This document shows, piece after piece, positions 35,004 through 51,906 of a stretch of DNA of 64,000 nt (its first letter is position 1; each line of letters opens with the position of its first letter). The position numbers and the translations under genes were made by a program. Under the pieces are notes generated by a model, which saw nothing but the letters and a program-made list of their open reading frames with translations, was not told the DNA's origin and did no database searches. The DNA lies in NCBI RefSeq assembly GCF_002210345.1, contig NZ_MWQI01000003.1, positions 62,001 to 126,000 on the forward strand, in the 5' to 3' direction. The DNA comes from Fibrobacter sp. UWB4. Its GTDB lineage: Bacteria > Fibrobacterota > Fibrobacteria > Fibrobacterales > Fibrobacteraceae.

Positions 35004-35033
35004 GGTAACACTTTCGAATACCTCCGGTGTTAC
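35004..35033 (+). promoter_or_regulatory. Bipartite ECF-type promoter/operator motif, copy 1 (sigma gene)
   Basis: GGTAACACTTT (35004-35014), 12 bases, GTGTTAC (35027-35033). The same layout with the same 12-base gap recurs at 38754 and 43061. GTAACAC and GTGTTAC are also perfect inverted repeats in this copy. As an ECF promoter it would start transcription at about the GTG start codon of the sigma gene. Confidence 0.65.
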
Positions 35034-35039
35034 ATAAAC

Positions 35040-35543
35040 GTGAAAAGCCTAGAAACCTTAAAAAAAGCAGGATTTGCAAAGATTTACGAGAAGTACGCGC
35101 CTATGGTCTATAGGCGCTGCCTGCAACTCCTTCGCGATGACGCTGAAGCTAGCGACCTTATGCAAGACGTTTTTTTGCGGATTTATTCAGCATCGGAACG
35201 CCTGGATATGGATTCGCCGAGCAGCCTTTTGTGGAATACGGCAACGAGACTTTGCCTTAACCGCATTCGTGACAAGCGCCGTCGTGGACTTGACGTAGAT
35301 TCTTCGAGCCTGCTTTTGAGCATCGCTTGTGCCGAAGACGAGCATGACGATTACGAAACGAAAAATGTGCTGGCAAAGCTCTTTTCGAAGGAACCCGAAT
35401 CTAGCCGCACAATGGCAGTCCTTCATTTTGTCGATGGAATGACGCTCGAAGAGACTGCCCGTGAAGTTGGACTCTCGGTAAGCGGTGTGCGCAAGCGTTT
35501 GCGCGGGTTACAGGCCAAAGTTAAAACTCTGGAGGTTCAGTGA
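35040..35543 (+). CDS. ECF-type RNA polymerase sigma factor
   Basis: The 167-residue sigma-70 family protein has region 2 (FAKIYEKYAPMVYRRC, LMQDVFLRIYSASERL, LLWNTATRLCLNRIRDKRRR) and region 4 (MAVLHFVDGMTLEETAREVG, LSVSGVRKRLRGL) with no regions 1 or 3, as in ECF factors. The start is GTG 35040; a putative promoter ends 7 bases before it, so the mRNA may be leaderless. It overlaps the anti-sigma gene. It probably drives its own operon and two downstream ones. Confidence 0.9.
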   Translation: MKSLETLKKAGFAKIYEKYAPMVYRRCLQLLRDDAEASDLMQDVFLRIYSASERLDMDSPSSLLWNTATRLCLNRIRDKRRRGLDVDSSSLLLSIACAEDEHDDYETKNVLAKLFSKEPESSRTMAVLHFVDGMTLEETAREVGLSVSGVRKRLRGLQAKVKTLEVQ

Positions 35544-36328
35544 TGATTCCCGATTGGAAATTAGAACGATTCCTGACTGGCGACTTGCCGGAAGAAGAAA
35601 TGAATAAGCTTCGCGAGCTTGAAGCGAATGATGCGGTGTTTGCAAATCGCGTGAAAATGCTCCGTGAAGACAACAAGGCAATTTTGAGCAAGTTGCCGTT
35701 TGAAACGTTTGCCGCGAATCTTGGAACGGCAACGGGTACTGCTGCGAAAAATGCGCCGCGCTTTACGCTCGTGAAATTTGCGGTTGCGGCCATGTTCATT
35801 TTCGCGGTTGCCATGGTGGCGTTCTTTGCCCAGCGCGAAACTTCTGTGATGAACGAACGCGTGGGGGCCGATGTTGCATCTGTCGGAGGCTCTCAAAACA
35901 CGCAGGTTGCATTTACTGAAACTCAGTCCGATACGCGAATCAAGGGACTCGACGCCCGTATGGAAGTCTGGAAAAAGACTTCGGCCGGGATTGTCCAGTT
36001 GAACGATCTTGATTCTGTCGGCGAAGGCGATGAGATTCAGTTGCGCTATGCCGTCCCCGAAAAATGCTATGGACTCCTTTTTAGCATGGACGGTAATGGC
36101 GCCTTGACTTTGCACATGGGCGATGGCGTGAAGGCGATTGAACTTGCTCCGGGCAAGATGAATTCGCTCCCGTTTGCGTACAAGCTTGACGATGCTCCGT
36201 ACTTTGAAAAGTTCTTCTTCGTGACTTCTCCCAGGGAATTTGCTGTTGAAGAAAATGATATCGACAAGTTGCTCAAGAGAAGTGATGTGAAGGTGGTTGG
36301 TTTTACTCTCAAGAAGGCGGGTAAATAA
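35543..36328 (+). CDS. Putative anti-sigma factor (single-pass membrane protein)
   Basis: The 261-residue protein has an N-terminal cytoplasmic part of about 75 residues (WKLERFLTGDLPEEEMNKLR, reminiscent of short anti-sigma helices), one membrane segment (VKFAVAAMFIFAVAMVAFFA) and a periplasmic domain of about 165 residues with DUF4384-like GDEIQLRYAVPEKCYGLLFS. The role is inferred from its place right after the ECF sigma gene (TGATG overlap; GGAGG site) and from topology. A single-base overlap couples it to the caspase gene. Confidence 0.72.
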   Translation: MIPDWKLERFLTGDLPEEEMNKLRELEANDAVFANRVKMLREDNKAILSKLPFETFAANLGTATGTAAKNAPRFTLVKFAVAAMFIFAVAMVAFFAQRETSVMNERVGADVASVGGSQNTQVAFTETQSDTRIKGLDARMEVWKKTSAGIVQLNDLDSVGEGDEIQLRYAVPEKCYGLLFSMDGNGALTLHMGDGVKAIELAPGKMNSLPFAYKLDDAPYFEKFFFVTSPREFAVEENDIDKLLKRSDVKVVGFTLKKAGK

Positions 36329-38601
36329 TGTTTATGATTTCGAATAAGTTTTTTGGGGTGTTGTCTGGTTTGTCTTTTGCGCTGCTTTTTGCGTTGCTCT
36401 TGTTGGTTTCAAATGCCAATGCGGCAACAGAATCAGGCCGTATCAATCGCTACGTTGTTGCCGTGAGTGCCAATAACGGTGGCGCTGGCCGCCCGGTGCT
36501 ACGCTATGCGGAAAGCGATGCCCGCTCGTTTGCTAAAGTGCTCAAGGAAATGGGCGGCGTGTTGCCGCAGAACGTGATTCTCGTGAAGGAACCGTCTGTT
36601 GTTGCGCTGCAAAAGGAATTTGCAAATCTCGATGCAAAAATTTTGCAGGATAAAGCATCTAACGGTCGCGATGAAGTGCTCGTCTATTACAGCGGTCATG
36701 CCGATGAAAAGGGACTTCGCTTGGGCGAAGAAACTTACGCCTGGAAAGATTTGCGTAATCGCATTGATGCTCTCAGTGCCGATGTGAAAATTGCTGTGAT
36801 TGATGCTTGCGGTTCTGGTGCGATTACCCGCGTGAAGGGCGGTAAGGCGGTGCCTGCATTTATGGTCGATCAGAGTAGCGATATGAAGGGCTATGCATTC
36901 ATCACAAGCAGTACGCAAGATGAATCCAGCCAGGAAAGCGATAAGCTCAAGGGTTCGTTCTTTACGCACTCGCTTGTGAGCGGGCTCCGTGGCGCAGGCG
37001 ACTTGAGTAGCGATGGAAAGGTGACTTTGTCCGAAGCCTACCAGTTTGCTTTCAATGAGACATTGCAAAAGACGGAAACGACGCTGGGTGGCGCACAGCA
37101 TCCGAGCCGCGACATGAACCTTGCCGGTACGGGTGACGTGGTGATGACGGATTTGCGTGCAACAAGTGCAGGCCTTGATCTGGACGAAAATGTTTCCGGC
37201 CGTTTGTACATCCGTGATGAAAATGACGAACTTGTCGCTGAACTCAATAAAAAGCTTGGACGCGCGATGAGTCTTGGACTCCCGGCAGGCAATTATACAG
37301 TGAAACTTCAGCAGAAGGCTGATTACATGGGCGTTTCGGTGGCGCTTAAAAATGGCAAACGTGAAAAGATATCGATTGTCGATTTTAAGAGTGTTGCTGC
37401 TGAACAGACTGTTTCTCGTGGCGATGTTGGCCGTAATAGAAATTGCTCCAGTGGGGATTCTATTGCCTGCTCGCTTGATTCTTTGGATCATAATGGAAAA
37501 TTCCGTACGACATTTAATTTTGTTGATGTTGAAAATAATCCGCGTAAGGGATTGCAGATTGGCTTTTTTGTAGCTCGTACTGAAGATTATATGTTGGGTT
37601 CGCAGGTGAGCTTGATTGCCAATGTTGCCAAAAGGGAAATGCATGGCTTGCAGGCAACAACGATTGCTAATGTGGCGAGGGACCATTTCGAAGGTGCTCA
37701 GCTTTCTTCTGTGGTTAACTATGCGGGTTCTTTAGATGGCGTTCAGCTAAGCACTGCTTTGAATGTCACGAAGGATAAATCCTCTGGTGTGCAGATCGGT
37801 ATTGTGAACGTCGCGGTTGACACTCTTGATGGTGTGCAGGTTTCTTCAGGCGTGAACTATGCGAAGTATACGGATTTTCAGATCACGGCCGGTGTGAATG
37901 CTGCTGTTTCTTCAAGTGTCCAGGTTGTTGCTGGTATTAACTACGCGACAAATTCTGATGTCCAAGTGGCAGCTGGCATTAATGCAGCTCATGAGAACGA
38001 TCACGTCCAGGTGGGTGTTATCAACTATGCGACAACGGAAAAAGGTCGCCAGTGGGGTATTATCAATATTTGCGGCGAATGCGAAAAGTCTCCGGTCGGC
38101 ATTATAAACATTGTCGGAAACGGTGTGTGGAACGTAACTCCTTACATCAACGAAATGGGTGCACTTGGTGGATCTGTCCATTTGGGTACGGCTTATTTCT
38201 ATACGAATCTTGAATGGGCTGCATTCTTCAAAAAAGGACATGTCTTTAAGGATTTTGAAAAGTTCTATGAACATGGTATTGGTATCGGTACCCAGTTTGG
38301 AAAGTACGGAAGTCACTGGGAACTTGAATACACGTTCTTCAATGTTTACAATAAATTCGGAACAGATAAGGATGACTGGAAATCTGGATACCATCACCGT
38401 GGACGCGTAGGTTACACGTACCAGGTTCTCCCGGGCTTTGGCCTTTCTGTGGGTGGATCGCTGAACTTGACGAGTGTCGGCTATTTGAATAAGCTTTTGC
38501 TCAAGCCTCTTGGCGATTATCATGACGATTTCTGTAGTAAAAAACATAGATCTCGTTGGTGGCCTGGATTTTATGCAGGACTCACGATCGGCAGATTCTA
38601 A
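36328..38601 (+). CDS. Secreted caspase-family (C14) protease fused to surface repeats and a barrel-like C-terminus
   Basis: The 757-residue protein has a signal peptide (FALLFALLLLVSNANAA), then a caspase-like domain (about 38-260) with catalytic His in VLVYYSGHADE (H124) and Cys in AVIDACGSGA (C161). From about 410 to 600 it has repeats of the type GVQLSTALNVTKDKSSGVQI, like LA_2272-type surface repeats. The last 150 residues alternate like outer-membrane strands and end in TIGRF. So the protease probably sits in the periplasm or on the surface, anchored by the C-terminus. Third gene of the ECF operon. Confidence 0.82.
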   Translation: MFMISNKFFGVLSGLSFALLFALLLLVSNANAATESGRINRYVVAVSANNGGAGRPVLRYAESDARSFAKVLKEMGGVLPQNVILVKEPSVVALQKEFANLDAKILQDKASNGRDEVLVYYSGHADEKGLRLGEETYAWKDLRNRIDALSADVKIAVIDACGSGAITRVKGGKAVPAFMVDQSSDMKGYAFITSSTQDESSQESDKLKGSFFTHSLVSGLRGAGDLSSDGKVTLSEAYQFAFNETLQKTETTLGGAQHPSRDMNLAGTGDVVMTDLRATSAGLDLDENVSGRLYIRDENDELVAELNKKLGRAMSLGLPAGNYTVKLQQKADYMGVSVALKNGKREKISIVDFKSVAAEQTVSRGDVGRNRNCSSGDSIACSLDSLDHNGKFRTTFNFVDVENNPRKGLQIGFFVARTEDYMLGSQVSLIANVAKREMHGLQATTIANVARDHFEGAQLSSVVNYAGSLDGVQLSTALNVTKDKSSGVQIGIVNVAVDTLDGVQVSSGVNYAKYTDFQITAGVNAAVSSSVQVVAGINYATNSDVQVAAGINAAHENDHVQVGVINYATTEKGRQWGIINICGECEKSPVGIINIVGNGVWNVTPYINEMGALGGSVHLGTAYFYTNLEWAAFFKKGHVFKDFEKFYEHGIGIGTQFGKYGSHWELEYTFFNVYNKFGTDKDDWKSGYHHRGRVGYTYQVLPGFGLSVGGSLNLTSVGYLNKLLLKPLGDYHDDFCSKKHRSRWWPGFYAGLTIGRF

Positions 38602-38651
38602 GGTCTATTGTCGATATGATACAAGCTAAATGACGTTATGATACGAAGTGG

Positions 38652-38690
38652 CGGAATCCAGTTTTTTTTCGACTGGATTCCGTTTTTGTT
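38652..38690 (+). terminator. Terminator of the sigma/anti-sigma/caspase operon
   Basis: Stem CGGAATCCAGT / ACTGGATTCCG with TTTTTG tail, about 50 bases behind the caspase stop. It separates this operon from the receptor operon. Confidence 0.85.
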
Positions 38691-38753: not shown

Positions 38754-38783
38754 GGTAACACTTTTTGTACTTTAAAGTGTTCC
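38754..38783 (+). promoter_or_regulatory. Bipartite ECF-type motif, copy 2 (TonB-dependent receptor)
   Basis: GGTAACACTTT (38754-38764), 12 bases, GTGTTCC (38777-38783). A transcript from it would start near 38790 and give a 20-base leader with GGGGAAAGGA before ATG 38809. Confidence 0.68.
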
Positions 38784-38808
38784 ATTGGGGAAAGGAACCG
38801 ATGTAACA

Positions 38809-41265
38809 ATGAAGTTTATGTTTAGGATTTTTGTCTTTGTCTTGATGGCTGTAGCGTTTGCTGCTGCACACGATAGTATTGTCTTTAACGGAATTGTTCA
38901 GGATGATTCGTTTGAATCTGGTGAAAAGCTGAATGTCGAAATTCTCGAAACGGGCGAAGCTTTGCAGACGACCGTGGGGACTCCTTTTAGCGTGGTTCTC
39001 CCTGCCGATACGCTTTGGAATGTGTGCGTCACGAACTCCGATACGGCAGGGGCTGCAAAGGAAAAGTGCTATGAACTTTTGTATTTCGGAAACGATAGCA
39101 CTTTCAGCAAGACGCTTGGCCCCGACGCTGTCACAGTTGACGAGTCTAATGTGCCTGCGCAAGCGTCTGATAGTGTCATCCTGAGCGAAGCGCAAGCGGA
39201 GTCGAAGGATCCAGTGAAGTCTTCGTCGGATTCCTCCGACGTTGATGTTGAAAAGCTTCTCGCTTCGGGTAGCGCAAATTCCAAAGTGACCGAACTCAAG
39301 AAAGTCGTGGTGCAGCTGCGTCGCCGCCCCAAGCGTAAGCCGGGTGAATCCGTGGTGAGCGCTAAATCCATCAAGCGTATGCCGGGCCTTGCCGAAGCGG
39401 ATGTCATCAAGAGCATCCAGGCGCTTCCGGGCGTTGTTGCGAGTTCCGATTTCAGCTCCAAGATTTATGTGCGCGGTGGCGCTGCCGACCAGAACCTATT
39501 CCTGTTTGACAATGCGGTCGTCTATTCGCCGGTGCATTTCTTTGGGCTTTTCAGCACATTCCTCGTCGAAGGCATTGACGATGTGCAGTTCTACAAGAGC
39601 GGATTCCCGGCGCAGTACGGCAATCGCTTGAGCTCCGTGCTCAAGATGGATGGACGTGCGGGCGGTCAGGATTCCGTGGAAGAATGGTTCAGCAAGTCGA
39701 GCATCAAGGTCAGTACATTTGCGGCACAGCTCCATACCGAAGGCCATAAGGGACCTGCGCGTTGGGTGCTTGCGGGACGTACGACTTACATTGGCTATGT
39801 CCTTGATTTGTGCAATGCGATTGGGCTTTTGGACCTCGATCTCGATTACGAATTTACGGACTTGCAGGGAACCTTCATGTACGACTTTTCTAAAGATACG
39901 CGCATGAAACTCAGCTTCTATATCGGCAAGGACCGCTTGGAATTTGACCCGCTTTATATGGACTGGGGAAACATCGCTATCCCGCTTGGATTCTACCACC
40001 GCATCAATGGCAACTGGGACTACAATGCGACTCTTGCTTACAGCAAGTTCTACCAGACGATGAAGGTGAGCGACCTTATGTCAATTGAAATGCTCCTTTA
40101 TACATTTGCTGGTAAGCAGTGGCTTAATTACCGTGGTATCGAAAACCATACGATAACTTTGGGCTACGAACTGGAATATGACTATGAACGGTATCAGGAG
40201 GCGATGGCCTCGATCTCGGTTGCTGATATTGAAAAGCCGTTCCATCATGTGGCTTACGTGCAGGATGCCTGGAAGATTTCGCCAGATTACTTGCTGCAAT
40301 ACGGTTTGCGATTCAATTACCAGACGGCATCAAAGCACTTTGGTGTAGAACCGCGAGCTTCGCTGAACATCACTCTTGACGATACGAAGTCGTTGGAACT
40401 TTATGGCGGTTACTATTTGCAGTATATGAATTCGATTGTGTATACCGACCAGGAAACGCTAAACGAATTCTATTACCCGGCAACGACAACGACGGATGGC
40501 AAACATATCAAGCCGGCTTCTTCATGGCTGCTTGCGGCGGAGTATAGCCATCGCGATCTGTTTGACGGTTACGATTTTACGGCCGGAGTTTATTACAAGA
40601 CGCAGAATAACTTGAATACATTTGCGATGAAACAGGATAGTAGTGATGGATCGTCTTCTAAAAAACTAGTGCTCGCCGACAATTTTGGAACGGCTGATGG
40701 ATATTCCTTTGGTTACGAACTTTCGCTCCGTAAAGATAAAGGTTGGTGGTTCGGTGGAATCAACTGGAGCCAGAGTATCAGCGCCGCGCGCTCCAATGAC
40801 GGGACCAAGGCGTATTATCCGAGTTGGCATCAACCGTATGCGCTAAAGATGGATTTGGGCATCAACTGGAAAGGCGATGAAGACGCCCTCTGGAAGCATA
40901 AGAAAAAAGGCCGTTATTTGCGCTCTTCCTTGGCGCTCAAGTATTCGTCGGGAATGCCGATTAGCGAATACAAGGGATATTACCTGCAACAGGAAATCGG
41001 GACGCAAAGATATTCAGACGATATCGTTGTGCTTCCGGGAAGCCGCAATGCTGGCCGCCAGACGGACTATTTCAGGATTGACTTGAAGGCAATTGACATG
41101 GGGCGCGAAGGCAAGTGGAATTTTAGCTGGACCATTATCAACTTGACGAATCACGACAACATGTTCTACACATTCTACGATACGCGCAAGACTCCGCCGA
41201 AGAAAACAGAAATTACTCAGTTCCCCTTTTTACCGATTATGTTGAATTATGAATACTACTTTTAG
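38809..41265 (+). CDS. TonB-dependent outer-membrane receptor
   Basis: The 818-residue protein has a signal peptide (FVFVLMAVAFAAA), a short N-terminal beta domain (about 20-100), a linker, the plug (about 185-290: SIKRMPGLAEADVIKSIQAL, KIYVRGGAADQNLFLFD, YGNRLSSVLKMDGRAG) and a long barrel ending MLNYEYYF. ATG 38809 follows GGGGAAAGGA. Part of the linker (SVILSEAQAESKDPVKS) is encoded by a dispersed repeat inserted in frame at 39174. The DUF4249-type lipoprotein gene follows. Its ligand is unknown. Confidence 0.88.
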   Translation: MKFMFRIFVFVLMAVAFAAAHDSIVFNGIVQDDSFESGEKLNVEILETGEALQTTVGTPFSVVLPADTLWNVCVTNSDTAGAAKEKCYELLYFGNDSTFSKTLGPDAVTVDESNVPAQASDSVILSEAQAESKDPVKSSSDSSDVDVEKLLASGSANSKVTELKKVVVQLRRRPKRKPGESVVSAKSIKRMPGLAEADVIKSIQALPGVVASSDFSSKIYVRGGAADQNLFLFDNAVVYSPVHFFGLFSTFLVEGIDDVQFYKSGFPAQYGNRLSSVLKMDGRAGGQDSVEEWFSKSSIKVSTFAAQLHTEGHKGPARWVLAGRTTYIGYVLDLCNAIGLLDLDLDYEFTDLQGTFMYDFSKDTRMKLSFYIGKDRLEFDPLYMDWGNIAIPLGFYHRINGNWDYNATLAYSKFYQTMKVSDLMSIEMLLYTFAGKQWLNYRGIENHTITLGYELEYDYERYQEAMASISVADIEKPFHHVAYVQDAWKISPDYLLQYGLRFNYQTASKHFGVEPRASLNITLDDTKSLELYGGYYLQYMNSIVYTDQETLNEFYYPATTTTDGKHIKPASSWLLAAEYSHRDLFDGYDFTAGVYYKTQNNLNTFAMKQDSSDGSSSKKLVLADNFGTADGYSFGYELSLRKDKGWWFGGINWSQSISAARSNDGTKAYYPSWHQPYALKMDLGINWKGDEDALWKHKKKGRYLRSSLALKYSSGMPISEYKGYYLQQEIGTQRYSDDIVVLPGSRNAGRQTDYFRIDLKAIDMGREGKWNFSWTIINLTNHDNMFYTFYDTRKTPPKKTEITQFPFLPIMLNYEYYF
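39174..39221. repeat. GTCATCCTGAGC repeat inside the receptor coding sequence
   Basis: GTCATCCTGAGCGAAGCGC, GGAGTCGAAGGATCCAGTGA and AGTC follow the intergenic consensus and are translated in frame as VILSEAQAESKDPVKS in the linker between the N-terminal domain and the plug. No stop or frameshift results. Confidence 0.8.
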
Positions 41266-41308: not shown

Positions 41309-43036
41309 ATGAATGTTTTTTTTGAATGTAAGAATGTAGGCGTCATTGCGAGTCACGGTAGTGGCGAAGCAATCTATAATGTTTTTTGTAGGCGATTCCT
41401 CTCGTCTCTCGTCTGGATTCTCTCGTCTGTTTTTCTCGTTGCTTGCGATTTTCATGGTCCGTGGGAATACTATCCCGAAGAACGCGAAGTCTATACGGGC
41501 ATTTATACGTACGGCTATGTCATGGCGCGCGAAAATCCTTATGTGTGCTTCTCGAAAGTTTACCAGCTTGATGAAGCGTCATCGCAAAATTTTGCGTTTT
41601 ACGATAGCGCAAGTGTCGTTATTGTTGGTCGCTTTGTGTCCGGTGAAAATTTTGAAAGAATCGATACGACTGCGGTTCTCGAACCGGAATCATCAAGGCC
41701 GAACTGTTTTTATACCCCTTATTTATTTCATGGCATTTATGGCGAATCGTATGAGTTGAACGCCTCCTTTAAATGGGATAGTGCTGGCCATATGGTAAAA
41801 TCGACTTATAAAGCTGTTGCGACGATTCCAAATCAGGTTCATGTTAAGGGAATGAGCAAACCTCAGCAAAATGGGGATTATGTTTGGCAGAATAATACAG
41901 GCGAATATGATTTGTTCTATGTGGATTTTCTGGAATTCCCGATGGATATGGAATTTGTGAAAGTCGCTCTAGATTATGATCAGTCTGTGCGGGGTGTTCT
42001 TTCGATTATGAATTACGACATTAGGAATGGTGAATCGCAGAATACAACGATGAACCAGATGTTTAAGGGAATGACCGATGCTGATGAAACGGGATATAGG
42101 GGAGTCGCTATGCATGATCCTCTGGAAGAACAGCAAAATCTTGGTTTTTCATCGAATCGCACTGTCGCTGGGAACAAAAATCTAGACACGCTTTACCTGA
42201 TGAATATGATGCTTCCGATTGGGAAAATTACGGTAGACCTTTATTCGACCGATGACGCCTATATTGATTATATGGATAAAGTAAAACAATCTGTTTCGGA
42301 TTCACGTTTTGTCCCGGAATCGAATATCCAGAATGGAATGGGCGTGTTTAGCGGAATGGCAAAAAAGACAATTACTGTAGAAGTTAGTGGTGATGCTGTA
42401 GGCTTTTCTCATATCGCTTGGGCGAATTGCAAAGACACTAAAGGAGACAATTCTGATAGCTGGGATTCCCGTGGGTGTAGGCTTTATCAAGATATCGCTT
42501 GCTCCGGAATGAACAATGAGGATGTTTATTTAGACGGACTGCAAAAAGCTAATGAAAAAGCTTCGTTGCTTTATAGAGATTCCGTTTATAATAGGCATGT
42601 AAAGTCTTGTTTTGCATCAAATGTGAAGGCGGCGATGATGCTTGATACGACGAAGTGGTCACAGTTCTTGCCGGATACGATAAATGCCGAAGACAAGGCG
42701 AATGCCTATGCTGATGGCTTGAAACGCTATTGTGTGGCGAACAATTTTGAAAGTAACCACATTGCAGATTGTTCTGCACTAAAACGGGATTGCTTGGAGG
42801 ATCCTGAACAAAATTACTGCAAGGAATATCTGTGGCTCTGGTGCGCTGACCGTGGCTGGAATTTGAAGGATTACGAACAGTGTCGTTCGGCTTTTGTGAG
42901 CCGCTATTATCTCCAGGAATTAAAATCTAGTGTTTTGAAACGCGAAGTCGAGAATGTGTGTTATGGCTTGGGTGCAGAACCTAAAATTTGCGAAAACTGG
43001 TGCCGTATCAAGGATGGTCATATAGAATGTCAGTAA
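41309..43036 (+). CDS. DUF4249-like surface lipoprotein, partner of the TonB-dependent receptor
   Basis: The 575-residue protein has a lipoprotein signal (WILSSVFLVAC), beta-rich DUF4249-type sequence and the typical late block SNIQNGMGVFSGMAKK. About 200 residues follow that are rich in cysteine (from ASWAN-like IAWANCKDTKG to the ending CRIKDGHIECQ), beyond the usual family length. DUF4249 lipoproteins are usually found beside TonB receptors in Bacteroidota. The first 30 residues include a translated GTCATTGCGAG repeat (41342-41381). It lies 43 bases behind the receptor in the same transcription unit. Confidence 0.72.
   Translation: MNVFFECKNVGVIASHGSGEAIYNVFCRRFLSSLVWILSSVFLVACDFHGPWEYYPEEREVYTGIYTYGYVMARENPYVCFSKVYQLDEASSQNFAFYDSASVVIVGRFVSGENFERIDTTAVLEPESSRPNCFYTPYLFHGIYGESYELNASFKWDSAGHMVKSTYKAVATIPNQVHVKGMSKPQQNGDYVWQNNTGEYDLFYVDFLEFPMDMEFVKVALDYDQSVRGVLSIMNYDIRNGESQNTTMNQMFKGMTDADETGYRGVAMHDPLEEQQNLGFSSNRTVAGNKNLDTLYLMNMMLPIGKITVDLYSTDDAYIDYMDKVKQSVSDSRFVPESNIQNGMGVFSGMAKKTITVEVSGDAVGFSHIAWANCKDTKGDNSDSWDSRGCRLYQDIACSGMNNEDVYLDGLQKANEKASLLYRDSVYNRHVKSCFASNVKAAMMLDTTKWSQFLPDTINAEDKANAYADGLKRYCVANNFESNHIADCSALKRDCLEDPEQNYCKEYLWLWCADRGWNLKDYEQCRSAFVSRYYLQELKSSVLKREVENVCYGLGAEPKICENWCRIKDGHIECQ
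41342..41381. repeat. GTCATTGCGAG repeat inside a coding sequence
   Basis: GTCATTGCGAGTCACGGTAG then GGCGAAGCAATCTA. It encodes part of the n-region of the lipoprotein signal peptide (VIASHGSGEAIYN). The same family is at 45624 and 46350. Confidence 0.75.
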
Positions 43037-43060: not shown

Positions 43061-43090
43061 GGTGACACTTTTGATGGGTCCAGGTGTTTA
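43061..43090 (+). promoter_or_regulatory. Bipartite ECF-type motif, copy 3 (TonB2 energising operon)
   Basis: GGTGACACTTT (43061-43071), 12 bases, GTGTTTA (43084-43090), about 37 bases before the first gene of the operon. The right half departs from the inverted-repeat form, which favours a promoter over a dimer operator. Confidence 0.6.
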
Positions 43091-43127: not shown

Positions 43128-43964
43128 ATGAAACGATTGAATATATTGCCTTTTGCGGTCCTTGTTTTCTCGCTTTCGGGTCTAGCCTTTGCTGACTACG
43201 AGTCCGAAATTCGCGACCTGAAAATGCAAAAGGAAAAGCTGAATTTTGAAATTCAAAACTTGAATACTCGAATTGCATCGACGGATTCGATGCTCCGTGC
43301 AGACGTGTCCCACCGCCAGTTGCTTGAACAGCGCTACAAGGCCGATGTGGAACGACGCAATCTGGAAATCGACAGCCTGAACGCGAAAATCAAGAAGGTG
43401 GCTGCAAGCCTCCAGCAGGAGCGCAACAAACAGGCTCGCGCAAAGAACAAGAGCGATAACGTGGCCGCCAAACGCCGTGCCTTGCGCGGTGAACTTGCCA
43501 AAATTTGCAAACAGCTCGAAGTCCAAATTGCGCAGACGCTCCCGTGGGAACGCGACAAGCGCCTTGACCGTGCTAAATCCTTGACGCGCGAAATCGAAAG
43601 CGGGAACGTGACCGAAGAAGAAGCTTTTTCTCGCATGAAATCGCTCGTGAATGAAGAAATCAAGTTCGGTGATGAAGTTTCCGTGGTCAATAGCCCGCTC
43701 ACTCGCAAGAATGGCGAAATTGTAAACGCGACGATTCTCCGCATAGGGAACCAGTGGATGGTCTATGTCGATGAAAACGGAGCCTCTTACGGTCGCCTGG
43801 AACGTAAGCTGGAAAACGATAAAGTTGTTTACGAATGGAACGAAGAATTGAATCTGGAAGAACGCGCTGCTGTGAAACTTGCTATTGACGTGAAACAGGC
43901 GAAAAAGCCGCCTCAGATTGTGAATTTGCCTGTAAGTTTGTCTGTTGTGGGAGGCGTGAGATGA
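43128..43964 (+). CDS. DUF3450-like periplasmic coiled-coil protein
   Basis: The 278-residue protein has a signal peptide (FAVLVFSLSGLAFA), a long coiled coil at about 22-120 (SEIRDLKMQKEKLNFEIQNL and further heptads), then an alpha/beta C-terminus with GNQWMVYVDENGASYGRLE. This matches the DUF3450 protein that heads TonB2 operons (DUF3450-TtpC-ExbB-ExbD-TonB-TPR) in marine gammaproteobacteria. Its last four bases overlap the next frame (ATGA). Confidence 0.78.
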   Translation: MKRLNILPFAVLVFSLSGLAFADYESEIRDLKMQKEKLNFEIQNLNTRIASTDSMLRADVSHRQLLEQRYKADVERRNLEIDSLNAKIKKVAASLQQERNKQARAKNKSDNVAAKRRALRGELAKICKQLEVQIAQTLPWERDKRLDRAKSLTREIESGNVTEEEAFSRMKSLVNEEIKFGDEVSVVNSPLTRKNGEIVNATILRIGNQWMVYVDENGASYGRLERKLENDKVVYEWNEELNLEERAAVKLAIDVKQAKKPPQIVNLPVSLSVVGGVR

Positions 43965-44035
43965 TTTTAGACGAAAGAACGGGCATGGCCCTACAGACGA
44001 GAGACGAAAGCGGTTCGACGAACTCACCGACCGAG

Positions 44036-44075
44036 TGTCATTCTGAGCGAAACGAAGTGAAGTCGAATAATCCTG
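44036..44075. repeat. GTCATTCTGAGC repeat at the start of the TtpC-like gene
   Basis: GTCATTCTGAGCGAAACGAA, GTGAAGTCGAATAATCCTGTG. It is read in a different codon phase from the copy at 39174, and its last GTG is the likely start codon of the gene. Confidence 0.7.
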
Positions 44076-45619
44076 TGAAATTCCTTGCCGTCATCCTGTT
44101 GCTCGCCTCTTCTGCTTTTGCATGGCCGTGGTCGAACGATAAGAAAAGTGCCGAAGACGAAGCCCGCATTAAGGATTCCTTGTTGCAAGTCGAAGTGCGC
44201 AATTTGCAGCGCGAAGTCGAAACGCTTACCCGCATCCGCATGCAAAAGGCCGATTCCCTTGAAAAGCTTGATGCCAAGCATTGGAGCAACCGCTATGCCG
44301 AATCGCAGTTGACCGAAGAACACCAGAATAAAACGCGTGAACTGGACGGTCGCTATTCCAAGCTTTCGACAGATCTTGGCCGCGTCACCGAAGAAGTGAT
44401 GGCGAACAAGAACGTCACCGAAGAAGCCGAAGAAAAATCAAAGAGCGAAGAAATTGCATTCGATGCGCTCAATACGCAAGTGAAACTCTCGATTGAAAAG
44501 ACGCTTGGCGATGTCGCTGGCGATTATCCGGTCGGGATGAACAAGCGCCTTTTGAACTTGAAACGCGCTAGCGCCGAAGCTGAAAAGAAGGTGCCGAATA
44601 CGATTGCGGCGGTGCAGGGCTACATGGCTGATTTGCTTGCCCGTCACGAAGTCACTTACACGCAGTCTTACGGTGCTGAACTTTCGCAGGTCGGTACGCG
44701 CCCGGACGTGAACGTGAATCGTTTGCGCTTGGGAACGGTGTTTCTCGGCGAAGTGGCAAACGACAATGGCGATGTGCAGGCGTTGTTGCGCTCTGGTGCT
44801 TTGCAAGGCAAGGTCTTTGAATGGAATGCGAATCTGCCCACGGAAATGGCCGCAAATATCAAGGCTGCCGTGAACCAGGCGGGATCGGTGACGGGTGCCA
44901 CAACGGACGCGCTGTCTGCAACTATCGCGATTCCACTGGATGTGCTACAGAACAAGGCTATCAAAAATTCCATCACCGATGCAAAGGAACTCACCTGGAC
45001 CGAAGAATTCAAGGCGTTCTTCAAGAAGGGCGGTATCGTGATGTATCCGCTTTCGCTTGTGGCGATCATTGCGTTCCTTCTGTTCCTTGAACGGTTCATC
45101 ATGCTTTCTTACCGTGGTCATCTCGGTCGCCGCTTTACCAAGAAAATGGATGCGCTTGTTGCCGAGAAAAAGTACGAAGATGCTGCCAATCTTTGCCTCA
45201 AGAAAGAGACGAGCCTTGCGATGGTGCTGTTTGCCGTGCTCAACAAGGTGAACGACACGCGTGAAAATGCGGAACGCTCACTGCAAGAAGCATTGCTCCG
45301 TGAACAGCCGAAACTTGAACGCCGCATGGGCCTTTTGGCTGCGATGGGTACGATTGCTCCGCTCTTGGGCTTGCTTGGAACGGTGACGGGTATCATCACG
45401 CTCTTTACCGTGATTACCGAAGTTGGAACGAATGACGCTCGCGTGCTTGCAGGTGGTATTTCTGAAGCGCTAGTCACGACTGAAATGGGCCTTGTCATTG
45501 CAATTCCGGTGATGATTTTGCATGGCCTTTTGAGCGAAAAGATTGAAAAAATCACCAGCGAACTCTACGTGCAAAGCACCTCGCTTATGAATAAAGTCTT
45601 TGGAAAGGAAAGTAAGTAA
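44075..45619 (+). CDS. TtpC-like MotA/TolQ/ExbB proton-channel protein with large periplasmic domain
   Basis: From GTG 44075 the 514-residue protein has a signal peptide (FLAVILLLASSAFA), a coiled-coil periplasmic domain of about 280 residues and a C-terminal ExbB domain with three membrane segments (GIVMYPLSLVAIIAFLLF, APLLGLLGTVTGIITLF, LVIAIPVMILHGLL). Vibrio TtpC has this design and bridges ExbB to the periplasm. A longer frame from ATG 43961 overlaps the previous stop but runs through a dispersed repeat and would hide the signal peptide. Confidence 0.85.
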   Translation: MKFLAVILLLASSAFAWPWSNDKKSAEDEARIKDSLLQVEVRNLQREVETLTRIRMQKADSLEKLDAKHWSNRYAESQLTEEHQNKTRELDGRYSKLSTDLGRVTEEVMANKNVTEEAEEKSKSEEIAFDALNTQVKLSIEKTLGDVAGDYPVGMNKRLLNLKRASAEAEKKVPNTIAAVQGYMADLLARHEVTYTQSYGAELSQVGTRPDVNVNRLRLGTVFLGEVANDNGDVQALLRSGALQGKVFEWNANLPTEMAANIKAAVNQAGSVTGATTDALSATIAIPLDVLQNKAIKNSITDAKELTWTEEFKAFFKKGGIVMYPLSLVAIIAFLLFLERFIMLSYRGHLGRRFTKKMDALVAEKKYEDAANLCLKKETSLAMVLFAVLNKVNDTRENAERSLQEALLREQPKLERRMGLLAAMGTIAPLLGLLGTVTGIITLFTVITEVGTNDARVLAGGISEALVTTEMGLVIAIPVMILHGLLSEKIEKITSELYVQSTSLMNKVFGKESK

Positions 45620-45623
45620 AATA

Positions 45624-45656
45624 CGTCATTGCGAGCCGAAGGCGAAGCAATCTAAT
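45624..45656. repeat. GTCATTGCGAG repeat
   Basis: CGTCATTGCGAGCCGAAGG then CGAAGCAATCTA fills the gap between the TtpC-like and ExbB genes, leaving no ribosome binding site for exbB. Confidence 0.75.
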
Positions 45657-45664
45657 CATGAATT

Positions 45665-46369
45665 ATGACTGATTTTCATTACATATTCATAGAATCCCTG
45701 CGGAATACGTACGAGGCGGGTGGCGTGGTAATGCTACCCATCCTATTGTCGGGCGTTGTCGGATTCTATTTCCTTTTCTCGAGCTGGTTTCGCATAGGTA
45801 GCGATTTTTTCAGGAAGGATATCACCAAAGTTGTGAGGCGTATGCAGCGCGGTTTGACTGGCGAAAGAGCTATTGCTGGGGCCGAGTCTTTTACTGATGA
45901 ACAGCGTGTGCAAACGACTTTGACAGACCTTCGCAAACGCGGTGGATTTCTTTCGAGAGAACTTTCTTACGCGATTGAAATTGCGCAAAAGAATTATGAC
46001 GAATTTCGCGACTACATGCAAGTGCGCATGATGAAAAGTGTGCGTTACATGGAACAAGGGAACCACATCGTTATGGTGATGGCCGCTGCCGCTCCGCTCC
46101 TGGGCTTGCTCGGAACGGTCACGGGCATGGTCTCTACTTTCGAAGTGATCACGTTGTATGGAAATCAGAACCCGGTGCTGATGGCGGATGGAATTTCTGA
46201 AGCATTGATTTCAACGCAAAGCGGACTCTTGATAGCGTTCCCGCTGACGCTTTTAAAGCAACGTTTGGACGAACGCATTGAAATCTTAAAGCAAGAAATG
46301 GAACTTGGCGCAACGGTAATCGACAATTATTTTGCAACTCGCGCTGGACAACGTCATTGCGAGCCGTAG
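45665..46369 (+). CDS. exbB: ExbB-type proton-channel subunit
   Basis: The 234-residue inner-membrane protein has three hydrophobic segments: VVMLPILLSGVVGFYFLF, MVMAAAAPLLGLLGTVTGM and ISTQSGLLIAFPLTLL. With ExbD it forms the proton channel that energises TonB. The final residues (GQRHCEP) and the stop are written by a GTCATTGCGAG repeat, so the C-terminus has been altered by repeat insertion. It lies 45 bases behind the TtpC-like gene. Confidence 0.9.
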   Translation: MTDFHYIFIESLRNTYEAGGVVMLPILLSGVVGFYFLFSSWFRIGSDFFRKDITKVVRRMQRGLTGERAIAGAESFTDEQRVQTTLTDLRKRGGFLSRELSYAIEIAQKNYDEFRDYMQVRMMKSVRYMEQGNHIVMVMAAAAPLLGLLGTVTGMVSTFEVITLYGNQNPVLMADGISEALISTQSGLLIAFPLTLLKQRLDERIEILKQEMELGATVIDNYFATRAGQRHCEP

Positions 46370-46384
46370 GCGAAGCAATCTAAA
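46350..46384. repeat. GTCATTGCGAG repeat that supplies a stop codon
   Basis: CGTCATTGCGAGCCGTAGG then CGAAGCAATCTA. The TAG in GCCGTAGGC ends exbB. Confidence 0.75.
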
Positions 46385-46393
46385 GGATTTGTT

Positions 46394-46798
46394 ATGGAAT
46401 TTAACTTACCGAGAAGAAAACAGAAAGACGTGGGTATTGAAATGGGCCCGCTGATGGATATCGTGTTCATCTTGCTCATCTTTTTTGTGGTGACGTCGTC
46501 ATTCACTCGCGAAACGGGTGTGGATGTGACTAAGCCGCAGGCGCAATCGGCTAGCCAACTTGAAAAAGAAAACTTGCTCATTGCTATCACGCGTGAAGGA
46601 ACGATTCACATGAACGAACGCCAAGTGGATTTGGCGAGCCTGCAGGACATCCTGAAACAGTCTCTCGCCAAAGCGCCCGACCGCGAAGCCGTCGTGATTG
46701 CCGACAAGGAATCCGAAACCGGCGTTCTCGTCCAGGTCATCGATATGTGCAATTTGGCTGGTGTCAAAAAAGTCTCCATCGCCGCCCAAGCAGAGTAA
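46394..46798 (+). CDS. exbD: ExbD-type proton-channel subunit
   Basis: The 134-residue protein has one N-terminal membrane helix with the essential aspartate in GPLMDIVFILLIFFVVTSSF and a periplasmic domain (LLIAITREGTIHMNERQVDL, VVIADKESETGVLVQVIDMC) typical of ExbD. AAAGGA precedes the start. Third energising gene of the operon. Confidence 0.93.
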   Translation: MEFNLPRRKQKDVGIEMGPLMDIVFILLIFFVVTSSFTRETGVDVTKPQAQSASQLEKENLLIAITREGTIHMNERQVDLASLQDILKQSLAKAPDREAVVIADKESETGVLVQVIDMCNLAGVKKVSIAAQAE

Positions 46799-46838
46799 AC
46801 GTGATTGATGTGGAACGGGCTTTCAAAAAAGTAATTGC

Positions 46839-46883
46839 GTCATTCTGAGGACCGTAGGGACGAAGAATCCAGTTAAGTCTTGT
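46839..46883. repeat. GTCATTCTGAGG repeat
   Basis: GTCATTCTGAGGACCGTAGG then CGAAGAATCCAGTTAAGTCT. It fills the gap between exbD and tonB. Confidence 0.7.
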
Positions 46884-46896
46884 ATTTGAGTGAATA

Positions 46897-47544
46897 ATGC
46901 AAAAGTTTATAAAAAAGTTTTTAAAGCGTTTTTCAATCCTTCTCGCGGCGATTCTTGCGAGCATGCTTCTCGTATTCTCCGTGACGATGGCGAATTTGTT
47001 CTTGACGGGTAAGATTTTCCACGAAAAGAAATTCGTCAAGACCGAAGTCTCCGTGAAAAAAGTTGAAGAAGTCGAAAAGAAGATTGAGAAAAAACGCACG
47101 GCACGCAAGCCGAACCGCCAAAAGTCCAATTCGCGCTCGCCCAAAGCGGGACCGCGTTTTGCCATGGCTCTTGGCGCTGTTTCAGGAACTGCGGGTGCAG
47201 CCATCAACAGCGAACTCGTTGCCGATTTTCGAGGTGGTGCTCTGTCCACTGAAAAAGGCGATGTCGATAAAAAGCCGGAAAGCCGCTCCATGCCGAATTT
47301 CCAGGTGCCGCCGCAAATCCGTGACCGCGAAATAGATGCCATGCTCCGCCTCAGTTTCTGTGTGGATGTTGGCGGTCGTGCGTACGACATCAAAGTCATC
47401 GAAGAATCTCCTGCAGGCTCTGGACTTGCGCAAGCGGGGAAGGATGCTATCGCCCGTATGACTTTTGCTCCCGCCGAAAAAGATGGCAAAGCTGTCGCTT
47501 TCTGCGGAATGGAACAACCCTTCGAAGTGAAATTTAGGGATTAG
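46897..47544 (+). CDS. tonB: TonB-family energy transducer
   Basis: The 215-residue protein has a basic N-terminus and one membrane helix (FSILLAAILASMLLVFSVTM), a Lys/Glu/Arg-rich stretch instead of the Pro-rich spacer of E. coli TonB, and a C-terminal TonB domain with LRLSFCVDVGGRAYDIKVIE and AIARMTFAPAEKDGKAV. Two cysteines in that domain could form a disulfide. It carries force to the receptor encoded upstream (inference). Confidence 0.88.
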   Translation: MQKFIKKFLKRFSILLAAILASMLLVFSVTMANLFLTGKIFHEKKFVKTEVSVKKVEEVEKKIEKKRTARKPNRQKSNSRSPKAGPRFAMALGAVSGTAGAAINSELVADFRGGALSTEKGDVDKKPESRSMPNFQVPPQIRDREIDAMLRLSFCVDVGGRAYDIKVIEESPAGSGLAQAGKDAIARMTFAPAEKDGKAVAFCGMEQPFEVKFRD

Positions 47545-47564
47545 TAGTTAGTAGGAAGTAGAAT
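47544..47564. repeat. Degenerate 7-bp tandem array (3 units)
   Basis: GTAGTTA, GTAGGAA, GTAGAAT at the tonB stop codon; in reverse complement it resembles the coding array at 47735. Confidence 0.5.
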
Positions 47565-47591
47565 GTGTATTCTAGAAGGTGATGTTTCGTA

Positions 47592-47620
47592 TCATTCCCG
47601 CGAAGGCGAAAATCTCCTTT
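47592..47620. repeat. AAGGAGAT hairpin repeat, inverted orientation
   Basis: TCATTCCCGCGAAGGCGAAA then ATCTCCTT is the reverse complement of the AAGGAGAT family. The frame is open through it, so an upstream start (47563) for the TPR gene looks possible but is repeat-derived. Confidence 0.55.
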
Positions 47621-47679
47621 TCAGACTCGCAAGAGGAAATGCTTGTTCTGGGACGGGCATGACAAATAAGGAAAATTTT

Positions 47680-48777
47680 ATGAGCATAAATAAGTTTGTG
47701 AATGTTATTTGTAAATTGCGGAAGTTTTCGAATCACTGTCTACTTCCTACTTCCTACTGTCTACTCATTTCCCTTTTCCTAGCGCTTCCGGCGTTCTCTG
47801 CTCAGTCTTCCTTTGACTTGATGGATCGCGCAAACGCCCTTTATCGCAGTGGAAAATTCAAGCAAGCTATCCTCTTGTACCGCAAGGCCGAAGACCGCGG
47901 CGCCGATCCCGTTGCCGTGAGTTTCAACATCGCCAATAGCTATTACCAGATGGACAAATATCCCGAGGCGGCCGCCGCCTACCGCAAGGCTGTGGACTAT
48001 TCCGAAGGCAATTTTGCACCCGCACTTTTCAATATGGCTAGCGTCTACTTCCGCTTAAAACAATTCCCGGAATGCATTGCCGTTTACCACCGTGCGCTCA
48101 AACTCGACCCCGATAACATTTCCGGCTGGCTTTACCTCGGTGAGGCTTACTCCAAAACCGGCGACAAAGTCGGAGCCCTCCGCGCCATCGAAAATGCTTA
48201 CCGCCTCGACAAAAATGACATCAGCATCGTTTACCAGCTCTCCGAAGCGAACATTGCTCTGAATGACTTTGACCGAGCCGTTGCCGTAATTCGCGAAGGC
48301 TACACGCTCCATCCCGAAGAATCCGATTTCTTAGTTTATCTTGGTGATGTTTACCGCCTGAACAAGAATTTTGAAGAAAGCGCCAACGCCTACCGCGAAG
48401 CCCTCAGCGTGAAAATTGACGACACGCAAATTATGTACAAGCTTGCCGATGTCCTTGCCGAAGACAAAAAGCCCTACATCGCCATGGAAATCTTAAATAA
48501 CATTTTGCAAATCAAGCCCGTTTTTTCCGATGCCGCCATCTTCATGGGAAACCTCGCATACGATGCCAAGTTCTATGATCGCGCCGAATATGCCTACGAG
48601 CTTGCTGCTAAAAACGGGAATGCCGAAGCCGTCTTTGGTTTCAAGAATATGGCCTACGATGTCCACGCGCAAAAACGCACAGAAGAATCCGTGCGCCTCT
48701 TGAATGTCGCTTTAAAATATTTCCCTGACGACGCCACTCTCACGGCGGACTTGCTCGAAATTCAGTCCGGAAAGTGA
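47680..48777 (+). CDS. TPR-repeat protein of the TonB2 operon
   Basis: The 365-residue exported protein has a signal sequence (CLLISLFLALPAFSA) and about eight tetratricopeptide repeats from residue 48 on (FDLMDRANALYRSGKFKQAI, NIANSYYQMDKYPEAAAAYR, GWLYLGEAYSKTGDKVGALR). A TPR protein closes the DUF3450-TtpC-ExbBD-TonB2 operon in other bacteria too. Part of the signal sequence (LLPTSYCLL) is written by a 7-bp array. The last 17 bases, including the stop, are the left repeat of the following island. Confidence 0.88.
   Translation: MSINKFVNVICKLRKFSNHCLLPTSYCLLISLFLALPAFSAQSSFDLMDRANALYRSGKFKQAILLYRKAEDRGADPVAVSFNIANSYYQMDKYPEAAAAYRKAVDYSEGNFAPALFNMASVYFRLKQFPECIAVYHRALKLDPDNISGWLYLGEAYSKTGDKVGALRAIENAYRLDKNDISIVYQLSEANIALNDFDRAVAVIREGYTLHPEESDFLVYLGDVYRLNKNFEESANAYREALSVKIDDTQIMYKLADVLAEDKKPYIAMEILNNILQIKPVFSDAAIFMGNLAYDAKFYDRAEYAYELAAKNGNAEAVFGFKNMAYDVHAQKRTEESVRLLNVALKYFPDDATLTADLLEIQSGK
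47735..47769. repeat. 7-bp tandem array inside a coding sequence
   Basis: ACTGTCT, ACTTCCT, ACTTCCT, ACTGTCT, ACTCATT within the signal peptide region of the TPR gene, so three units make seven codons. Confidence 0.65.
48761..48777. repeat. Left 17-bp direct repeat of the accessory island
   Basis: TTCAGTCCGGAAAGTGA forms the last codons and stop of the TPR gene; an exact copy lies at 58118-58134. The 9.3 kb between them has a different gene content and composition. Confidence 0.8.
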
Positions 48778-51087: not shown

Positions 51088-51906
51088 TTATTGTCTTTGC
51101 TTAGACAAGTATTCATTCAAGGCTTTATTGCAAGACCCATAGCTGGTATAACGCAATGAGCTAACTTGATTTGCTGGATTTTTAGTTCCTTCGAGCACGA
51201 CTCTGTAATCCCCATAAAGTTCTATGCACTCGTATGCAACAGGAGTCTTTTTGCCATTTAAGTAATTATCCAAATCGCGATTGCAGGATTTATAGTTTGA
51301 GTAGCGTTTCGAGCTAACTTGATTTGCCGGATTTTTAGTTCCCGCAAGCACGACTCTAAAATCTCCATAAAGTTCTATGCACTCGTATTCAACGGGAGTC
51401 TTTTTGCCATTTAAGTAATTATCCAAATCGCGATTGCAGGATTTATAGTTTGAATAACGTTTTGAACTAACTTGATTTGCCGGATTTTTAGTTCCCGCAA
51501 GCACAACTCTAAAATCCCCGTAAAGTTCTATGCACTCATATTCAACGGGAGTCTTTTTACCATTTAGGTAATTATCCAAATCGCGATTGCAGGATTTATA
51601 GCTTGAGTAGCGTTTTGAGCTAACTTGATTTGCTGGATTTTTAGTTCCTTCGAGCACGACTCTGTAATCCCCATAAAGTTCTATGCACTCGTATGCGATA
51701 GGAGTCTTTTTACCATTTAGGTAATTTTCCAAATCACGATTGCAGGATTTATAGCTTGAATAACGTTTTGTACTGACTTGATTCGCTGTATTTTTAGTCC
51801 CTTCAATTACAACTCTATAATCTCCATAAAGCTCTATGCACTCATAATCCGTTGCATAAAGACAAGCAGATAAAAGGAGATACACTGAAAGAAATTTCTT
51901 TAGCAT
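51088..51906 (-). CDS. Secreted protein of five tandem 51-residue repeats; function unknown
   Basis: The 272-residue protein has a signal peptide (FLSVYLLLSACLYA) and five near-identical 51-residue units starting YECIELYGDYRVV and ending LNGKKTP. Each unit has two cysteines (unit positions 3 and 35) and the motif GTKNPANQVSS. Units 2-4 are closest in sequence, a mark of recent expansion; the underlying DNA repeats with a 153-bp period. The family is not recognised. It lies convergent to the truncated phage-like gene. Confidence 0.75.
   Translation of the reverse strand: MLKKFLSVYLLLSACLYATDYECIELYGDYRVVIEGTKNTANQVSTKRYSSYKSCNRDLENYLNGKKTPIAYECIELYGDYRVVLEGTKNPANQVSSKRYSSYKSCNRDLDNYLNGKKTPVEYECIELYGDFRVVLAGTKNPANQVSSKRYSNYKSCNRDLDNYLNGKKTPVEYECIELYGDFRVVLAGTKNPANQVSSKRYSNYKSCNRDLDNYLNGKKTPVAYECIELYGDYRVVLEGTKNPANQVSSLRYTSYGSCNKALNEYLSKQRQ

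Follow-up and report, generated by a model that had tools for sequence, protein, structure and literature searches.

A caspase homologue of 757 residues is encoded in a 64,000-nucleotide (nt) stretch of the genome of the rumen bacterium Fibrobacter sp. UWB4 (hereafter the window, whose positions are used throughout; contig NZ_MWQI01000003.1). As judged from structural models, it is in all likelihood a four-part protein composed of a signal peptide, a caspase domain, a repeat arm and a C-terminal outer-membrane barrel. With comparably high probability, to judge from a sequence motif shared by the genes concerned, the caspase belongs to a regulon driven by the extracytoplasmic function (ECF) sigma factor of its own operon. 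Although caspase homologues occur widely in bacteria, a function is known, to our knowledge, for a minority of them, and in each case it is a cytoplasmic one. A large, single-copy and conserved group of secreted caspases is here assigned a predicted location, a sigma factor that in all likelihood controls it, and a promoter and regulon, both predicted, as well as a few candidate substrates, one of them with a single invariant residue that can be mutated; the role of secreted bacterial caspases becomes directly testable in Fibrobacter or Myxococcus. The protein is laid out as follows.

36328..38601, forward strand: outer-membrane-anchored caspase (anchor predicted), 757 residues, from the translated open reading frame (ORF), Pfam and AlphaFold2.
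36328..36423, forward strand: signal peptide, residues 1-32, cut after ANA and before A, read off the sequence.
36433..37158, forward strand: caspase/metacaspase domain, residues 36-277, from Pfam C14 and structural comparison.
36697-36699 and 36808-36810, forward strand: catalytic dyad, His124 and Cys161.
36826..36843, forward strand: T-R-V-K-G-G loop, residues 167-172, beside the catalytic Cys.
37492..38124, forward strand: predicted beta-solenoid arm of ~15-residue GVQ....N-A repeats, residues ~389-599, from LA_2272_repeat, the model and solenoid matches.
38116..38598, forward strand: predicted 8-stranded outer-membrane beta-barrel, residues ~597-757, with a C-terminal Phe, from the model and structural comparison.

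A signal peptide and an intact dyad had been called in the first-pass annotation of this DNA, and both calls hold. The N-terminus, read directly, carries K7, a hydrophobic segment, and A-N-A(32) followed by A, which is the signal peptidase I pattern, and no lipobox Cys was seen in it. His124 and Cys161 are invariant in the 106 aligned caspases (106/106), in the contexts S-G-H and D-x-C-x-S-G, and Peptidase_C14 (PF00656; E 5.9e-11, above the cut-off) is the sole Pfam match to the protein. The full-length AlphaFold2 model has a mean pLDDT (predicted local distance difference test) of 79.7; in structural comparisons of the model, residues 36-277 matched Arabidopsis metacaspase-4 (Z 20.0, 2.7 Å over 206 residues) and caspase-3/-7 (Z ~19). 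The gene is single-copy and finds a match in 36 of 37 genomes of the genus, its own genome counted. A cytoplasmic defence caspase was ruled out by the signal peptide, the barrel and the absence of any match to PADLOC models at E 0.1. The only other C14 protein of the genome (L314; G000:C4, around 149425-150087), apparently cytoplasmic and 431 residues long, has neither a signal peptide nor the KGG loop, lies near a CoiA-like zinc-finger protein and may be a defence gene.

The C-terminal half had been described as GVQ/N-A repeats together with outer-membrane-like strands. Both are present, and the description is refined in that the modelled repeats form a solenoid apart from the barrel. Modelled alone with 50 homologues, residues 387-757 reached a mean pLDDT of 90.4. 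The arm matches LA_2272_repeat (NCBIfam NF047436; E 3.7e-6, 26.6 bits against a cut-off of 25), as do 39 of 50 relatives, and the ~210 residues ahead of the barrel match the beta-solenoids of GlmU/LpxD (Z ~12, root-mean-square deviation ~9) and of tapirin (Z 10.8, 3.4 Å); because of these values, we call the arm a beta-solenoid with moderate confidence. Residues ~596-757 (210-370 of the modelled fragment) match 8-stranded transmembrane barrels at Z 12-15, namely the designed barrel 6x9z (Z 14.8 at 1.7 Å), OprF (Z 14.4), OmpA (Z 13.6), and OmpW and NspA (Z about 13). A barrel built from the repeats was thereby ruled out, as only residues ~597-757 model as one. The protein ends in Phe in 38 of the 50 relatives, as many outer-membrane proteins do. 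The proposed attachment to the outer membrane by a barrel-like tail has thus taken the form of a predicted 8-strand barrel, and a soluble C-terminus did not come out. Both ends of OmpA-type barrels, and thus the N-terminal side, are periplasmic, so that with an 8-strand barrel of this type the caspase probably faces the periplasm. Distant secreted caspases (L065-L070, L288-L290), of 520-560 residues and with the sigma partner kept, lack the solenoid, and most of them close with a short, beta-rich tail whose last residue is F; the fusion to a barrel may have preceded the repeat arm.

The caspase gene closes a three-gene operon with the following elements.

35005..35031, forward strand: predicted ECF promoter of the operon, GTAACACTTT-N11-GGTGTT, 0 mismatches.
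35040..35543, forward strand: ECF sigma factor, 167 residues (Sigma70_r2 E 9.3e-15; NCBIfam sigma70-ECF E 9.2e-23).
35543..36328, forward strand: anti-sigma factor, 261 residues from the ATG, assigned by homology of orthologues and position.
~35771-35839, forward strand: single transmembrane segment of the anti-sigma factor, by inspection.
35936..35947, forward strand: R-I-K-G in the juxtamembrane linker of the anti-sigma factor, candidate cleavage site.
38650..38684, forward strand: rho-independent terminator-like hairpin of 14 pairs, closing the operon.

Consecutive genes overlap by 1 nt at both junctions, sigma/anti-sigma and anti-sigma/caspase, and with the terminator-like hairpin behind the caspase gene this upholds the genetic tie between the caspase and the sigma/anti-sigma pair noticed earlier. 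The sigma factor consists of regions 2 and 4 only, with Sigma70_r4_2 at 26 bits (cut-off 25.7) and TIGR02937 above its cut-off. The middle protein has a helical N-terminal cytoplasmic domain, one transmembrane segment and a DUF4384-type periplasmic domain; on account of this layout, its homology and its position beside the sigma gene, it is assigned as a putative membrane anti-sigma factor of class I. DUF4384 was matched in 13 of 19 aligned orthologues and zf-HC2 in 3, all distant, and a Pfam search of the family found no FecR. The protein of this genome itself matched nothing in Pfam and lacks zinc ligands, and its N-terminal domain appears to be a zinc-less relative of zf-HC2.

The sigma/anti-sigma/caspase triad recurs in nearly every Fibrobacterota locus examined and also in Myxococcota. 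Operons of this kind, pairing a sigma-70 factor with a metacaspase, were already reported in 2012 from the myxobacteria Myxococcus, Anaeromyxobacter, Haliangium and Sorangium, from Ralstonia and, by name, from Fibrobacter (Asplund-Samuelsson et al., PMC3501461). The excerpted text of that article mentions no anti-sigma/DUF4384 gene, barrel, solenoid, promoter motif, regulon or split operons; relative to that text, the barrel anchor, the anti-sigma factor and the regulon are the additions made here.

Genomes in which the operon has split offer strong evidence for control of the caspase gene by the sigma factor, since the same motif precedes both pieces. In loci of Fibrimonadaceae/Fibrimonadales (L123-L133) the caspase gene stands alone among unrelated genes, and GTRACACTTT-N11-RGTGTT lies near the start codon of the detached sigma and caspase genes alike. 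Each of the nine caspase genes that stand alone has it (9/9, with 0-1 mismatches), against none of 2000 shuffled 300-nt windows. An anti-sigma profile search of seven Fibrimonadaceae genomes with a stand-alone caspase gave a match in four, always directly after a sigma gene. At one locus (L139; G068:C92) the triad is still adjacent, with an extra motif copy between the anti-sigma and caspase genes, apparently an evolutionary intermediate before splitting. The motif comprises a -35-like GTAACA/GTGACA, a spacer of ~16 nt and a -10-like GTGTT; nearly all sigma orthologues of Fibrobacter have it in the same upstream position, 8 nt from the start codon in the window and in most loci. Because this distance is so short, the sigma transcript, like those of the detached caspases, would probably be nearly leaderless if the motif is a promoter. 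An operator palindrome (AACAC...GTGTT) was disfavoured, since the GTGACAC variant is common and asymmetric, the right half is fixed and the 8-nt distance is constant in most Fibrobacter loci.

The same motif marks further genes downstream in the window.

38755..38781, forward strand: second motif copy, upstream of the TonB receptor gene, 0 mismatches.
38785..41265, forward strand: TonB-dependent receptor, predicted co-regulated (Plug E 6.1e-7).
41309..43036, forward strand: DUF4249-like protein after the receptor gene (DUF4249 E 1.4e-4, below the curated cut-off).
43062..43088, forward strand: third motif copy, 1 mismatch.
43128..48777, forward strand: DUF3450, ExbB, ExbB, ExbD, TonB and TPR genes, predicted co-regulated.

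Allowing at most one mismatch, the sites of the genome lie at the sigma operon, the TonB receptor, the DUF3450/ExbB/ExbB/ExbD/TonB operon and two FMN_red/flavodoxin-type reductases. Across 38 Fibrobacter genomes the motif was counted at 106 sites, and its reversed pattern, the control, at 9. Sites away from the sigma gene fell before TonB receptors (15), flavin mononucleotide (FMN) reductases (14), DUF3450 operons (13) and DUF4249 genes (2), and 6 had no clear gene, these counts being of sites and not of independent events, with a few of the fetched stretches overlapping. The motif precedes the TonB receptor orthologues genus-wide, the DUF3450 operons of many Fibrobacter and of Candidatus Fibrimonas, and the DUF4249-like relatives at three loci (L221, L229, L286). 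In Candidatus Fibrimonas termitidis it stands before the caspase, TonB receptor, DUF4249-like and DUF3450 genes on four contigs. The TonB receptor was ruled out as a fixed operon partner, as it is not always adjacent. Its motif copy in the window (38755-38783) is nearly palindromic and matches both strands, with 0 and 1 mismatch, and could therefore be read divergently. The two reductases (L163:3213-3800 and L164:11014-12210) have Cys-rich segments and carry the motif genus-wide.

We then asked what the caspase might cut. Metacaspases cut after Arg or Lys, and D95, S156 and D211 of TbMCA2 are part of a putative S1 site (PMC4357240). A phmmer search of the full-length caspase against Protein Data Bank sequences gave no match, and the alignment to metacaspases was subsequently obtained with a profile. 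It sets D64, S122 and D159 as the counterparts of these three residues; they are conserved in 106/106, 105/106 and 106/106 of the aligned caspases, from which we infer a P1 specificity for Arg/Lys, of the C14B type. On the anti-sigma side, Lys134 (numbered from the ATG at 35543) is present in 95 of 95 orthologues and Gly135 in 93 of 95; Lys134 ranks second in conservation within the protein, and the linker around it is among its most variable parts. In the caspase itself, the TRxKGG loop after the catalytic Cys keeps its K in 105 and its first G in all 106 of the aligned sequences. The invariant Lys-Gly of the linker and the R-x-K-G-G beside the Cys together suggest that R-x-K-G, cut after the Lys, is the recognition sequence. 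We tentatively name the anti-sigma factor as the likeliest substrate. Its periplasmic domain had been proposed for a cleavage assay in the first-pass annotation, and the link is plausible, through this invariant K-G and a co-regulation that outlasts operon splitting; the cleavage itself stays hypothetical.

These elements could be joined in one mechanism. A metacaspase/orthocaspase-type C14 protease would be held at the outer membrane by the 8-strand barrel, with the beta-solenoid arm spacing the periplasmic caspase from it, and a membrane anti-sigma factor with a DUF4384 periplasmic domain would hold the autoregulated ECF sigma factor, of which the caspase would be the most conserved output. 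Upon a trigger, either a signal from the outer-membrane arm or activation of a zymogen, the caspase would cut the anti-sigma factor after the invariant Lys of the R-x-K-G in its juxtamembrane linker, and this site-1-type step would free the sigma factor to raise the caspase, the TonB receptor, the ExbB/ExbD/TonB energiser and the flavin reductases. That the caspase is a periplasmic Arg/Lys feedback protease acting on the envelope side of its own ECF pathway, with the anti-sigma factor as the hypothetical substrate, is to our judgement a serious candidate at somewhat short of an even chance. The complete version, in which an outer-membrane-tethered caspase reaching across the periplasm on its solenoid arm is both the site-1 protease and the main sigma product, closing a feedback loop in Fibrobacterota and Myxococcota alike, is possible but doubtful; if true, envelope signalling would gain a further type of protease.

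Several points weigh against the feedback protease, and some of them favour a regulon effector, which we hold as a possible, if tentative, explanation. Here the caspase would mature, clip or turn over co-regulated envelope proteins (the TonB receptor, the DUF4249 protein, TonB/ExbD) or imported substrates, another factor would control the anti-sigma factor, and R-x-K-G would belong to the structure of the DUF4384 domain. A regulon of TonB uptake and flavin reductases suits a protease working on uptake proteins equally well, and the motif stands before the genes for the caspase, the TonB receptor, DUF4249 and ExbB/D-TonB also where all of these lie dispersed over the genome. DegS and other known site-1 proteases usually lie outside the regulon that they trigger. 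Three Fibrimonadaceae genomes keep the caspase and gave no anti-sigma match, these being metagenome-assembled genomes and possibly incomplete. One sigma/DUF4384 pair (L257) has the K-G with no caspase nearby, and for that reason the K-G may serve the DUF4384 domain itself; several distant pairs lack the Arg, and the pairing of the anti-sigma and caspase motifs follows phylogeny. R-x-K-G was accordingly rejected as proof of cleavage, being found in L257 and not having a universal R. However, the effector leaves unexplained an absolutely invariant Lys within a variable linker, as well as a conserved core of sigma, anti-sigma and caspase whose TonB genes are not always neighbours.

An autotransporter-like display on the cell surface, with extracellular, host or competitor substrates, is unlikely. 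The order of N-terminal domain, beta-solenoid and C-terminal barrel does recall autotransporters, and the repeat family carries the name "surface repeat". However, autotransporter translocator barrels have 12 strands; the autotransporter Hbp domain was among the barrel matches, weakly, and the best matches are 8-strand barrels of the OmpA/OprF/OmpW type, which disfavour display because they are too narrow for a folded or hairpin passenger and have periplasmic N-termini. Of the periplasmic or surface substrate first proposed, the periplasmic side is thus favoured and the surface has become the less likely.

An outer-membrane protease induced by envelope stress, for protection (against cationic peptides or misfolded envelope proteins) or for cell death or fratricide, is improbable: the predicted Arg/Lys specificity and the location recall the function of OmpT, and fratricide is raised in PMC3501461 as a possible role of extracellular metacaspases, but the regulon holds uptake machinery and flavin reductases and not typical envelope-stress factors, the single copy conserved in nearly all Fibrobacter is unlike an accessory weapon, and PADLOC gave no match.

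Among known systems, the metacaspases/orthocaspases (C14B) share with this protein the caspase fold, the H-C dyad, the S1-site acids and the expected lack of an acidic-P1 pocket; it differs from them in being secreted and fused to a predicted solenoid and outer-membrane barrel. The LA_2272/VC2662 surface-repeat family has the same repeat as the arm, but its named families are not caspase fusions. RseA/DegS and FecI-FecR-FecA have in common with the present system a membrane anti-sigma factor with a periplasmic domain and a sigma factor controlling a TonB receptor; here, by contrast, there is no DegS/PDZ protease and no FecR, and the candidate protease is the co-regulated outer-membrane caspase. 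FecA-type receptors bear an STN domain, whereas the receptor of the window matched Plug and no STN in Pfam. In Craspase of type III-E CRISPR, Csx29 (TPR-CHAT) cleaves Csx30, the inhibitor that holds the ECF-type CASP-sigma (PMC10028731). The likeness is one of logic, a caspase-like protease cutting a sigma inhibitor; Craspase is cytoplasmic and RNA-guided, with a CHAT domain and a soluble Csx30, and is not homologous in architecture or location. CHAT was not among the Pfam matches of the caspase, and no Cas7-11 gene was found among the neighbouring ORFs examined. For group ECF54, with CHAT, subtilase and carboxypeptidase neighbours, proteolytic control of sigma has been proposed from gene neighbourhood (PMC8999054); that group is described as having no anti-sigma factor, unlike the operon presented here. 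In the open-licence papers searched we found no defined ECF regulon containing a caspase that is fused to an outer-membrane barrel.

Elsewhere in the window, positions 51088-51906 on the reverse strand encode a secreted protein with five near-identical repeats of ~50 residues (YECIELYGDYRVVLEGTKNPANQVSSKRYSSYKSCNRDLDNYLNGKKTP).

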